NCBI RefSeq assembly: GCF_000015045.1
Contig: NC_008609.1
Span: forward strand, 682,001-746,000
DNA from: Pelobacter propionicus DSM 2379
Lineage (GTDB): Bacteria; Desulfobacterota; Desulfuromonadia; Geobacterales; Pseudopelobacteraceae
Length of the DNA: 64,000 bases
Reading direction: 5' to 3'
Part shown: positions 12,151-17,136 of the stretch, piece after piece
Layout: each line of letters begins with the position of its first letter
How positions within the stretch are numbered: position 1 is the first letter of the stretch
Program-made: the position numbers and the translations under genes
The notes under the pieces: model-generated
Database searches by the model: none
The model's input: the letters and a program-made list of their open reading frames with translations, nothing else
What the model was told of the DNA's origin: nothing

Positions 12151-14235
12151 ATGGGACGGTTTGACACGAGCAAGATCCGCAATCTGGGTATCATCGCGCA
12201 CGGTGGCGCCGGCAAAACTTCGCTGGCCGAGGCAATCCTCTTCGATACAAAGATGATCGACCGACTGGGACGGGTAGACGACGGCACCGCTACCATGGAT
12301 TTCGAGCCCGAGGAGGTCAAACGCAAGATCTCCATTACCTCGGCCCTGGACCACTGCGAGTGGAAGGATCATTCCATTCACATCGTGGATACCCCGGGCT
12401 ATGGAAACTTCATCGCCGATACCCGCGCCTGCATGCGCGCCCTGGACTGCGCGGTGGTGATCCTCTCCGCCATTTCCGGCGTCAAGGCCCAGACCGAGGA
12501 GGTCTGGAACTGGGCCAACGAGTTCGAAATTCCCCGCATCGCCTTCGTCAACAAGATGGACCGGGAGCGGGCCAGCTTCCTGCGCGCCATCGACGACATG
12601 GAAAAGTCGCTGGGTGCGCGCGGCGTAGCCGTCCAAATGCCCATCGGCGCCGAGGCCGAGTTCGAGGGGATCATCGACCTGATCACCATGAAGGCCTGCT
12701 TCTACGCCAAGGACGGCTCGGGCGACTACAGCCAGGGGGATATTCCCGAAGAGTGCCTGACCGAGGCCAACCGTCTGCGGGAACTCATGGTGGAGACGGT
12801 TGCCGAGGCCTATGATGCCCTGACCGAGAAATATTTGGATACGGGCGAGTTGACCGAGGAAGAGATCCTGGACGGCCTGCGGGTCGGCACCATGCGCAGT
12901 ACCTTCACTGCTGTGCTGTGCGGCTCCGCCACCGCCAACATCGGTGTGGCGCACCTGCTGGATGCCATCTGCGCCTATCTGCCGTCGCCCCTGGATCGCA
13001 CCAAGGCGGTGGGCACCCATCCCAAGAGCGGCGACATCGTTGAGCGCGCTCCCGACGAGGCGGAACCGTTCTCGGCGCTGGTATTCAAGACCACCTCGGA
13101 TCCGTACACCGGCAAGATCACCATTCTGCGGGTCTATTCCGGGGTCCTGAATTCCGACTCAATGGTTTTAAACTCCACCAAGGGGGTCGAAGAGCGTATC
13201 GGGCAGCTCTACGAGCTGGAGGGGAAGAAACAGCATCCCATCAAGCAGGCGGTTGCCGGCGATATCGTGGCGGTTGCCAAGCTGAAGGAGACCGTGACCG
13301 GCGACACGCTCTGCACCCCGGCCAACCCCATTGTCTTCGAGCCAGCCAGGCAGCTGCTTCCGGTCATCTCCTACGCCATCGAGCCCAAGACCAAGGCAGA
13401 TGAGGACAAGATCCACAACGCCCTCCACCGCATGATCGAGGAAGAGCCGACCCTGGAGTCGCACCGCGATGCCAAGACCCGTGAGATGATTGTCTCCGGC
13501 ATGGGGCAGGTTCACCTGGAAGTGATCGTGGAGAAGATGAAACGCAAGTTCGGCGTCGACGTGGTGCTCAAGACCCCCAAGGTGCCTTATTTGGAAACCA
13601 TCCGCGGTTCGGCCAAGGTACAGGGAAAGTACAAGAAACAGTCCGGCGGGCGCGGCCAGTACGGCGATTGCTGGATCGAGATGTCGCCCGCGGAACGGGG
13701 CGATGGGTACATCTTCGAAGACAAGATCGTGGGGGGCGTAATTCCGCGCCAGTACATCCCGGCCGTTGACAAGGGGATCAGCGACGCGGCCCAGGATGGA
13801 TTCCTGGCCGGCTACCCGGTGGTGGACTTCAGGGTAGCGCTCTACGACGGCTCCTTCCACACGGTGGACTCCTCGGAGATGGCCTTCAAGGTTGCCGGTT
13901 CCATGGCCTTCAAGAAGGCCATGGAGGTCTGTAAGTCGGTGCTCTTGGAACCGATCATGAACATGAAGGTGACCGTGCCGGATGAGAACATGGGCGACGT
14001 CATCGGCGACTTGAACTCCCGTCGCGGCAAGGTGGTGGGGGTGGAGCCAAAGGCCAACTCCCAGATAATCAGGGCGGTGGTGCCCATGTCCGAGGTCCTG
14101 GCTTACTCAAACGACCTGAAATCCATGACAAGCGACCGGGGCATGTTCACGGTGGAGTTCTCCCACTACGAAGAGCTACCCACGCATCTGGCGCAGAAGG
14201 TCATTGCCGAGGCGAATGCGGCCAAGAAGGAATGA
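12151..14235 (+). CDS. fusA2: EF-G-like translational GTPase, class II (FusA2 type)
   Basis: A 694-residue protein with all five EF-G domains. The G domain reads AHGGAGKTS at residues 16-24 and NKMD at about 133-136, and domain IV-V extends through GGRGQYGDCWIEM. It differs from the canonical EF-G at 37027 in two places. The P-loop is GGAGKT rather than DAGKTT, and the G3 motif is DTPGYGNF with Tyr84 where EF-G has the catalytic His. These are marks of the EF-G II group, whose role is not settled. A strong AAGGAGGAATCAG ribosome site precedes ATG 12151. It is not linked to ribosomal genes. Confidence 0.9.
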   Translation: MGRFDTSKIRNLGIIAHGGAGKTSLAEAILFDTKMIDRLGRVDDGTATMDFEPEEVKRKISITSALDHCEWKDHSIHIVDTPGYGNFIADTRACMRALDCAVVILSAISGVKAQTEEVWNWANEFEIPRIAFVNKMDRERASFLRAIDDMEKSLGARGVAVQMPIGAEAEFEGIIDLITMKACFYAKDGSGDYSQGDIPEECLTEANRLRELMVETVAEAYDALTEKYLDTGELTEEEILDGLRVGTMRSTFTAVLCGSATANIGVAHLLDAICAYLPSPLDRTKAVGTHPKSGDIVERAPDEAEPFSALVFKTTSDPYTGKITILRVYSGVLNSDSMVLNSTKGVEERIGQLYELEGKKQHPIKQAVAGDIVAVAKLKETVTGDTLCTPANPIVFEPARQLLPVISYAIEPKTKADEDKIHNALHRMIEEEPTLESHRDAKTREMIVSGMGQVHLEVIVEKMKRKFGVDVVLKTPKVPYLETIRGSAKVQGKYKKQSGGRGQYGDCWIEMSPAERGDGYIFEDKIVGGVIPRQYIPAVDKGISDAAQDGFLAGYPVVDFRVALYDGSFHTVDSSEMAFKVAGSMAFKKAMEVCKSVLLEPIMNMKVTVPDENMGDVIGDLNSRRGKVVGVEPKANSQIIRAVVPMSEVLAYSNDLKSMTSDRGMFTVEFSHYEELPTHLAQKVIAEANAAKKE

Positions 14236-14296: not shown

Positions 14297-14321
14297 TATG
14301 CATGAATGCTTGGAGGTTCCA

Positions 14322-15341
14322 ATGGGTCACAGCCGTAATTCTGTCAATACTTTTCAACTGAAATCATCCCCTGGCGGCAGGTATGCCCCGCGCACTGTTT
14401 TGGCGTTCTGTCTGGCGCTGATGATAGGCTGCTCCTCCTGCGACCGTTTTGGCCAGGAGAAGAGTCAGGATACCGAGGCGCCGGCTGATGCGGTGCAGAA
14501 GATGCCGTTGCCACGGCACGTGGAGGAACCACCCCAGGCTGGTGCTCAGGCTGATCAGGCGGCGAATAAGATCGCCTCTGAGCTAGACAAGGCTGGTGCA
14601 CCTTCTCTGGCAATGAAACAGGCACCACAGCAGAAGAAAGATGAAGCGAAGAAGCCCCAGTCCGCCCCCGACAAGGTGAAGGAAGAGAAGGGCGCCGCTC
14701 TCGTCAGGGGAGAGGCGAAACTGTCCGGTCAGGCGGCCAGGGCCAAAGTGCCTGCCGATAAAAAACCGGCTCCTGCCGCGGCCAAAACGACCCTGGCGGA
14801 CAAAAAGTCAGCCCCTGCCGCTGCCAAAACGCCGGCTGCCGTACCCACGGCAAAGAAGAAATCTCACTCGACAACGACCGCTGCCTCATCCAGAACGTGG
14901 ACGGTCGTCATGGGCCCCTACCTGCTGGAGGAAACCATGGCCTCCGATCTGACCAGAGTGAGGAAGGCCGGACTCAGCGCGAAGATCCAGTCGACGCCGC
15001 GCCAGAAAACGGCCATGAACCGTCTGCTTCTGGCACAGTTTGGCGACCGCGCCACGGCGCAGACGGAGTTTGACAGGCTCAAACGCCATACCTCGGATGC
15101 GTTTATCCTCGAACAGGGGGGGAAGCACGCGGTCTATGCCGGTTCGTACCTTCTGGACAGCCGAGCCCAGTCTGAAAAGGAACGCCTGGCTGCCGCCGGA
15201 TTCAGTCTGACTCTCAAGCGCACCGATGTGGCCGTTCCCTCCCGGCGTCTCGTGGCCGGGACTTATCACGATCGTGTTGCGGCGGAAACGGTCCAGAAAA
15301 AGCTGAAGGCTGCGGGAGTGAGGAGCATGCTGGTCCACTAG
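14322..15341 (+). CDS. SPOR-repeat envelope protein, probable lipoprotein
   Basis: 339 residues from the ATG at 14322, 6 bp after TGGAGG; the in-frame ATG at 14298 is less likely. A basic N-terminus and hydrophobic stretch end in LMIGC, an imperfect lipobox. Then comes a low-complexity Ala/Pro/Lys linker (about residues 40-185) containing a near-duplicate ADKKPAPAAAKT / ADKKSAPAAAKT. The C-terminal 150 residues contain two to three SPOR-like units (WTVVMGPYLLEE, HAVYAGSYLLDSRAQSEKER, RLVAGTYHDRVAAETVQKKL). SPOR domains bind denuded peptidoglycan at division sites. The gene is followed 6 bp later by the helical-repeat gene. Confidence 0.75.
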   Translation: MGHSRNSVNTFQLKSSPGGRYAPRTVLAFCLALMIGCSSCDRFGQEKSQDTEAPADAVQKMPLPRHVEEPPQAGAQADQAANKIASELDKAGAPSLAMKQAPQQKKDEAKKPQSAPDKVKEEKGAALVRGEAKLSGQAARAKVPADKKPAPAAAKTTLADKKSAPAAAKTPAAVPTAKKKSHSTTTAASSRTWTVVMGPYLLEETMASDLTRVRKAGLSAKIQSTPRQKTAMNRLLLAQFGDRATAQTEFDRLKRHTSDAFILEQGGKHAVYAGSYLLDSRAQSEKERLAAAGFSLTLKRTDVAVPSRRLVAGTYHDRVAAETVQKKLKAAGVRSMLVH

Positions 15342-16254: not shown

Positions 16255-17136
16255 ATGGCGCTTGTCAACCACGCAACAAAGGAGATCAACGCAAAAATCG
16301 TCTACTACGGTCCGGAGAAGAGTGGCAAGGCCACCTCCCTGCGCTATGTACACGCCAGGATTCGCCCTTCGCTGCGCAGCGAATTGAAGAGCATACCGGC
16401 AAGCGGTTCCCCCCTGCTGTTTTTCGATTTTACCCCCTTTGAACACCTCGTCTTTGGCGGCTACCGCATCCGTTTTCATCTCTACACCCTGCAGGGCTCT
16501 GTTGCCAACCCGGCTGCCTGGAAAATGACCCTGAAAGGCGCCGATGGCCTGGTGATGGTCATGGATGCAACGCCGGGGAGGTATCAGGCCGCCCTGCAGA
16601 GTCTGACGCAACTGCGGGATTTCCTGGACAACTACGGTATGGGGTTGGATGACATTCCCGCTGTACTTCAGCTCAACAAGGCCGATCTCTCCGGAGAGCT
16701 GGTTGCCGAGGTTGCTGCCAGGGGGCTGGGCTTGAAGGGGTGCCGCGTCTTGACGACAAACGCGCTGACGGGTGCGGGGGTCCTGGAAACCCTATCTGCT
16801 CTTTCTCCTCTGGTCATGGGGCGTGTCGGCGAGCGTGACGACCTGCCCCGTCTGCGTGGTGCGGAAGCCCCTTCCGCGGAGAGCGGTATTCCAGCTGACA
16901 CTGCCCCGGAGAGACCCGCCGATGACGCGGGCGCCGTTGATGCCGGGCCACGTGGGGGCGAGTCCGCGCATCACCTGGCCGCGGCCGCACCCCCTGGCCA
17001 GGCGGTCGGACAGGTGAGCGTGTCGCAGGACGGGGTTCGCGTAGAGGCGGGAACGGTGGTCATCCCCCTTGAAGTCAGCTCTTCCCAGGGTATTCAGCGG
17101 CTGACGGTGACCGTCATGGTCGCCCCCGCGCCGTAG
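16255..17136 (+). CDS. Degenerate MglA-like small GTPase-fold protein with C-terminal extension
   Basis: A 293-residue protein. Residues 5-185 match the MglA/Ras-like family (INAKIVYYGPEKSGKATSL; RIRFHLYTLQGSV; LNKADL at about 140-145). The guanine-specificity motif NKAD (141-144) is intact. The P-loop is GPEKSGKA (19-26), with Ala26 at the Ser/Thr Mg2+ ligand position. The MglA switch II sequence, usually TVPGQVFYN, reads TLQGSVANP. A Pro/Ala-rich linker leads to a C-terminal beta-rich segment of about 45 residues. Nucleotide binding is likely, hydrolysis doubtful. MglA controls polarity and motility in Myxococcus; the role here is unknown. Confidence 0.8.
   Translation: MALVNHATKEINAKIVYYGPEKSGKATSLRYVHARIRPSLRSELKSIPASGSPLLFFDFTPFEHLVFGGYRIRFHLYTLQGSVANPAAWKMTLKGADGLVMVMDATPGRYQAALQSLTQLRDFLDNYGMGLDDIPAVLQLNKADLSGELVAEVAARGLGLKGCRVLTTNALTGAGVLETLSALSPLVMGRVGERDDLPRLRGAEAPSAESGIPADTAPERPADDAGAVDAGPRGGESAHHLAAAAPPGQAVGQVSVSQDGVRVEAGTVVIPLEVSSSQGIQRLTVTVMVAPAP

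Follow-up and report, generated by a model that had tools for sequence, protein, structure and literature searches.

The closest described relatives of the protein reported here are the MglA proteins of Group 1, known from Myxococcus xanthus and Thermus thermophilus. A survey of the small GTPases of prokaryotes, published in 2014, placed the MglA family in the set of GTPases that do not exceed 240 aa; it reported an Arg finger throughout Group 1 and used this finger adjoining the G2 Thr (R53-T54) as a Group 1 criterion (PMC4316618). MglA-GTP works via the TPR protein SgmX (PMC7519303), and in M. xanthus R53 and T54 are moved into the nucleotide site by MglB (PMC6876712). In one mutational study of M. 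xanthus MglA, the G19A, K25A, T26N, Q82A/R, N141A, K142A and D144A proteins were undetectable and K25A did not complement, while T54A was produced but was diffuse and largely non-functional; the same paper cites stable Q82L and T26/27N forms from other laboratories (PMC3000849).

Fremgen et al. (2010) described an 'MglA2' group, whose MglA-like proteins are longer, are extended at the C-terminus and lack an mglB partner. The protein described below resembles this group in length, extension and absent mglB partner; loss of catalytic residues is not mentioned for MglA2 in the available text (PMC3000849). The 'MglA2' table contains a G. sulfurreducens protein of 291 aa with 39% identity to MglA (PMC3000849), which is possibly an orthologue of our protein. 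Eukaryotic pseudoGTPase domains, so named by the authors, are described for p190RhoGAP (PMC5593906). They likewise have a GTPase-like fold but belong to an unrelated lineage, whereas the protein studied here is a stand-alone bacterial protein. Judged by titles and abstract starts, the pseudo-GTPase papers that we found are mostly eukaryotic, and a degenerate MglA family was not found described in the one literature collection searched at that depth.

The window, i.e. the whole stretch of 64,000 nucleotides that was analyzed (C3:682001-746000), belongs to a genome that totals 4,241,119 bases; it has three contigs, and the chromosome accounts for 4,008,000 bases. It contains an open frame for an MglA-like protein, referred to as pseudo-MglA, with the following features:

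16255..17136, + strand: pseudo-MglA, 293 aa, with G domain (about 1-193), linker (about 194-251) and C-terminal beta element (about 252-289)
16309..16335, + strand: P-loop residues 19-27, GPEKSGKAT; Ala replaces the Mg2+-ligand Ser/Thr26, Lys25 is present
16411..16428, + strand: switch-I residues 53-58, PLLFFD; R53 (Arg finger) is replaced by P and T54 (Mg2+-binding) by L, F57-D58 are present
16483..16527, + strand: switch-II residues 77-91, YTLQGSVANPAAWKM; Q82 is replaced by S and R89 by W
16675..16686, + strand: G4 motif NKAD, residues 141-144, intact in the window protein
17008..17121, + strand: C-terminal beta element in the AF2 model, which by eye also ends canonical long-tail MglAs

The initial annotation had described an altered P-loop and switch II next to an intact NKAD (141-144), and the translation bears this out: residues 19-26 read GPEKSGKA, with Ala26 encoded at 16330-16332, and residues 78-86 read TLQGSVANP. 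Beyond that description, the protein has lost R53 (now Pro) and T54 (now Leu). The canonical MglA of the same genome, which aligns without gaps up to residue 150, carries GPGLCGKTT, TVPGQVFYD and NKRD; it is encoded at C3:3213821-3214405, with a Robl_LC7 (MglB-type) match at C3:3214601-3214873. Pseudo-MglA shares with Group 1 the G-domain fold and residue numbering, the FFDF strand, TxxG in place of DxxG, and G19, G24 and K25. It differs by T26A, R53P, T54L, Q82S and R89W, by the 100-residue tail and by the lack of an adjoining mglB. In terms of the Group 1 motifs, GPEKSGKA stands where G1 demands GxxxxGK[ST], P53-L54 replaces R53-T54 and TLQGS replaces the TVPGQ of G3, while G4 is retained as NKAD. 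Adjacency to mglB (Robl_LC7), a Group 1 trait though not one of every member, was not observed for the frame in the window: Robl is matched twice in the genome, at C3:3214601 and at C3:3447454. A phmmer search linked the window protein to T. thermophilus MglA (1.8e-41); its match to the Arf family of Pfam (PF00025) stayed below the cut-off (19.1 vs 22.3 bits). Scanning for promoters and terminators revealed nothing exceeding chance.

From 238 MglA-like ORFs in the collected loci we retained 145 distinct rows, comprising 21 short canonical, 12 long canonical and 112 sequences with Trp at position 89; row counts do not equal independent events, many of the genomes are drafts, and all evidence is sequence-based. 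G19, K25, T26, R53, T54, Q82, R89, N141, K142 and D144 were present in all 33 canonical rows. In the alignment of the Trp89 group, T54 was retained in none of the 112 rows, Q82 in 4, R53 in 24, Ser/Thr26 in 38 and NKxD in 46, so that NKxD is gone in 66. No row combined Ser/Thr26, T54, Q82 and NKxD, and the first three were jointly missing in 71/112. Gly19 and Lys25, on the other hand, occurred in 112/112 and Gly24 in 110/112. Leaving out rows known only from a pattern scan (n = 79) gave the same picture (T54 0, Q82 3, Ser/Thr26 27, NKxD 42, K25 79), and four sequences met later all had Met54 and Trp89 and lacked Gln82. In addition to any short canonical MglA, 57/57 near relatives have a long MglA-like frame of 271-431 aa, and most, not all, of these frames were read letter by letter; the median length of the Trp89 rows was 285 aa. 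Since the relatives have lost these sites too, the motif loss in the window protein is more than chance, and pseudo-MglA is apparently an order-wide family rather than a single-strain quirk.

Conservation of Ala26 among orthologues, which the initial annotation had put up for examination, was not borne out. Ala occupies position 26 in only 13/112 Trp89 rows, which rules it out as a conserved, selected substitution; judged from the alignment, position 26 is freed rather than fixed as Ala. Orthologues with a normal GKT and QVFY, which would have spoken against an altered GTPase, were sought as well and account for 0/112 rows. Only the 12 canonical long-tail MglAs that lie nearest on the tree had these motifs (T26 and Q82 in 12/12, F84 in 9/12). 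Retention averaged 0.60 over 12 nucleotide sites and was no lower than over 31 further positions at which canonical MglA does not vary (also 0.60). Within the nucleotide sites the losses fall on T26, R53, T54 and Q82, and K142 and D144 are kept in about half of the rows. Short MglA paralogues of the same genomes (L271, L272 and L275), which may be SofG-like, differ by keeping GKTTN, TVPGQ and NKRD and form a separate branch.

A short MglA of 194 aa was encountered at L301, in a small genome (G586, 1.7 Mb, 81% complete). It carries GPALCGKTK, Met54 and QVSDVTPHK and is perhaps, by its sequence, a second, separate degeneration of MglA.

The AF2 model of pseudo-MglA (106 rows, pLDDT 87.4, pTM 0.71) has a confident G domain of the MglA type. 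In structure comparison the eleven best entries were all MglA, with 5ymx at the top (Z 28.5, rmsd 2.3 over 197), and the best non-MglA chain reached Z 18.5. Scores were 26.5-28.5 for GDP forms (rmsd 1.7-2.3), 26.4 for GTP-gamma-S and 24.1-26.1 for MglB-bound MglA; the lean of the model to the GDP form is slight and no proof of a locked state. The tail of about 100 residues noted earlier was confirmed and is modeled as a linker with pLDDT under 60 (about 201-250) followed by a confident beta element (about 252-289). By eye, a similar element closes the canonical long MglAs. When 20 genomes were searched for the tail element, the best match lay inside the pseudo-MglA frame in 18; in G010 and G041 it lay outside at chance level (E 0.24 and 0.91), and across the 20 genomes the best match outside these frames reached only E 0.09. 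One family member, L245, has no tail element as read. The long canonical MglA of L178 (genome G098) measures 947 aa and has a very long acidic insert ahead of its C-terminal element.

The tree was built by a quick method from the G domain with the trait columns removed and carries SH-aLRT support without bootstrap. All 112 Trp89 rows form a single clade (SH-aLRT 99); 50 of 142 inner forks were weakly supported and drawn open. Closest to this clade are the 12 long canonical MglAs, in two groups that the tree does not order. These proteins (e.g. L128, L161, L246) resemble pseudo-MglA in tree proximity, in their locus position beside a helical-repeat gene and, by eye, in the tail element. They differ by having T26, R53, T54, Q82, N141, K142 and D144 intact in 12/12. 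The fewest changes on the tree, a count that does not separate gain from loss, were 1 for T54, 5 for Q82, 7 for NKxD, 9 for R53 and 20 for Ser/Thr26. Three members (L224, L226 and L140) have GK[ST]T and NKxD, yet they carry Met54 and Trp89 and lack Gln82. Their pattern therefore suggests that the changes in switch I and II preceded the loss of GK[ST]T or NKxD.

Pseudo-MglA belongs to a conserved gene block, whose upstream members in the window are:

12151..14235, + strand: EF-G-type elongation factor
14298..15341, + strand: SPOR-domain protein, upstream of HELIX
15348..16238, + strand: helical-repeat protein (HELIX) with a HEAT-like N half, an acidic linker and a strongly conserved C half (SKY..GDKEWR..)

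Of the 77 named loci, 76 have HELIX upstream on the same strand; the one exception is a canonical MglA from a cyanobacterium. The gap between HELIX and MglA measures 8-147 bp (median 17) in 75 loci; L095, where the HELIX frame is interrupted, was left out. EF-G and SPOR genes precede HELIX wherever the locus extends far enough, with the exception of L128, in which tblastn found no SPOR. HELIX matches were obtained in 53/57 relatives, in 185/195 genomes of the class and in 130/395 genomes sampled across the phylum. A canonical long MglA adjoins HELIX in L178, L180, L181, L162, L163, L246-L249, L252 and L255. The run nadC-birA-coaX-EF-G-SPOR-HELIX, in which SPOR was not detected every time, recurs outside the order (L168-L187) with or without a terminal MglA, and in several families it ends at HELIX without MglA. 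Many genomes have HELIX but no pseudo-GTPase, and HELIX therefore does not depend on it.

No Pfam family matched HELIX at E 0.1. Its model combines the HEAT-like N half with another helical array and has a break of 33 residues modeled at low confidence; the best known fold scored Z 6.8, too low to mean much for helical repeats. Conservation is far stronger in the C half (residues 158-296; tree length 9.1) than in the N half (36.0), and the C half also matches shorter frames elsewhere in the phylum. Of 18 SPOR proteins examined, 16 have an N-terminal TM-like segment, mostly ending in YLYFFTG or similar. In the genus of the window (14298-15341; L064) a CSSC/CSCD stretch resembling a lipobox takes the place of this segment. 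Rate covariation over 123 branches and 68 taxa gave partial r values, given EF-G, of 0.66 for HELIX-MglA, 0.57 for SPOR-MglA and 0.73 for HELIX-SPOR. The difference between the first two, 0.09 (95% -0.07 to 0.24), is not significant and does not single out HELIX.

Four genomes from two genera (G009, G036, G039 and G044) have pseudo-MglA and no HELIX match, and the partnership is therefore not absolute. F57 or D58 is altered in all four of their rows vs 0/108 HELIX-bearing rows (0/75 once pattern-scan-only rows are omitted) and 0/4 further sequences. Because G036, G039 and G044 belong to one genus, these changes represent at most three events, and the association was spotted after the fact. The HELIX-less rows also change somewhat more at conserved sites in general (2-4 changes, where the others have a median of 0 and at most 3). 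In MglA, F57-D58 sits between F56 and F59, which mark how switch 1 is displaced by three residues when MglA-GDP is compared with MglA-GTP-gamma-S (PMC6876712). The initial annotation had supposed that the protein works with the adjacent helical-repeat protein. Gene order and the F57/D58 changes do suggest a link between pseudo-MglA and HELIX, which the four HELIX-less genomes limit.

Canonical MglA was looked for in G009, G036, G039 and G044 and was absent. None of them has an MglB-like Robl match of normal strength: there was no match in G009 and G036, the one in G039 reached 5.5e-4, and the one in G044 (5.1e-5) is just over the cut-off. All four genomes match PilM strongly (E 1e-76 or better). 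Among the 195 genomes of the class, HELIX and canonical MglA are both absent in 4, only HELIX in 6, only MglA in 12 and neither in 173. With these exceptions, the joint absence (Fisher 0.005, ignoring kinship and draft quality) is no more than suggestive of a shared loss. In six further HELIX-less genomes (78-88% complete) no complete pseudo-MglA was found, G606 yielding an unclassified fragment.

How can these losses be explained? A decaying duplicate on its way to a pseudogene would account for the several nucleotide-site residues that vary freely and for the G009 copy on its long branch (0.99). It was rejected as hardly conceivable, contradicted by the long frame in 57/57 relatives and by a dN/dS of the G domain of 0.04-0.26 in 15/15 Trp89 pairs (0.02 and 0.06 in two canonical pairs), which places the gene under purifying selection; Y77, L93, K94, G95, D97 and G98 are moreover invariant in 108/108 HELIX-bearing rows. 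A GTPase working by an unusual mechanism, in which a partner such as the helical-repeat protein supplies catalytic and Mg2+ residues, is very unlikely. For the Rup GTPases of Group 1 it has been suggested that the catalytic Gln comes in trans (PMC4316618), and GK[ST]T plus NKxD persist in L224, L226 and L140; against this, T54 is missing throughout the Trp89 group and NKxD from most of it. A partner is not known to replace NKxD, and, on the sequences at hand, the family as a whole cannot have GTP switching as its function.

More weight is due to a non-hydrolyzing, ligand-bound G protein, close to the view of the initial annotation, although we consider it unlikely on balance. Its GxxxxGK loop would permanently hold a nucleotide or phosphate compound without Mg2+, as a structural cofactor, or would sense another ligand. 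The constancy of G19, K25 and G24, while T26, T54 and Q82 of the same site are freed, fits this proposal, as does NKAD in the window member. The missing NKxD in 66/112 rows counts against it and means that guanine is not the common ligand of the family; moreover, the role of Lys25 may be purely structural, the failure of K25A to complement in M. xanthus fitting both readings (PMC3000849).

We favor as probable, with reservations, a pseudo-GTPase that descends from a small GTPase of the MglA type and that would no longer switch but act as scaffold or adaptor in the conserved SPOR / helical-repeat / MglA gene block. The family combines a GTPase fold with lost catalytic and nucleotide motifs in a conserved gene. 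Of the initial proposal of a pseudo-GTPase scaffold, the first part is thus supported (T54, Q82, Ser/Thr26 and R53 lost in a clade under purifying selection), and the scaffold role is what we infer, together with the absence of GTP switching, HELIX binding and the cellular place. The M. xanthus MglA mutants at these sites, which were undetectable (PMC3000849), were counted in favor. Counted against the pseudo-GTPase scaffold were the constancy of Gly19, Lys25 and Gly24, odd if phosphate is never bound, NKAD in the window member, the four genomes without HELIX, the frequency of HELIX without the pseudo-GTPase, rate covariation that does not favor HELIX, equal retention of nucleotide and other sites (0.60 each) and the post hoc nature of the F57/D58 association. 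The unbroken Lys25 argues against a pure scaffold, and a phosphate ligand may remain.

Under the pseudo-GTPase reading, the ancestor would be a catalytically complete long-tail MglA, probably already beside the helical-repeat gene, whose product it may have bound in a GTP-dependent manner. In the ancestor of the clade, Thr54 of switch I would have disappeared and Arg89 would have become Trp; the catalytic Gln82 most likely went at this stage as well. Later, the Mg2+ ligand at position 26 would have been lost many times and guanine recognition by NKxD several times. With T54, Q82, the ligand at 26 and in many members NKxD gone, a Mg2+-GTP switch cycle is no longer expected. The protein would most likely be a fixed scaffold or adaptor, in which the FFDF strand and the remodeled switch II (N-P-A-x-W-K-M) hold HELIX constitutively and the C-terminal beta element may form a second contact. 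By analogy with MglA-GTP and SgmX, HELIX would be held without a nucleotide signal, and the SPOR protein would connect the block with the septal or polar envelope.

For the whole order Geobacterales we tentatively propose, with almost even prospects, that a Ras-like polarity GTPase became a non-switching part of an envelope-linked complex of SPOR protein, HELIX and pseudo-MglA. Thr54 and switch II would have gone before the Mg2+ ligand and guanine recognition, with Lys25 kept, maybe for a non-guanine phosphate ligand. Judged by titles and abstract starts, the pseudo-GTPase papers found deal mostly with eukaryotes; in the present case, a family of bacterial small GTPases seems to have undergone this conversion across an order. 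The 240-aa limit of the 2014 survey (PMC4316618) would miss more than half of the Trp89 rows. A relative of the Ras switch that apparently order-wide kept the fold and lost the parts of the switch is a natural experiment in turning a switch into a fixed building block. If true, bacteria would possess a Ras-like family of pseudo-GTPases, with its active ancestral type still living in the same gene position. This active type and the intermediates make the order in which a G-protein switch is dismantled testable, as well as the question of which MglA surface serves partners after the nucleotide has become irrelevant.
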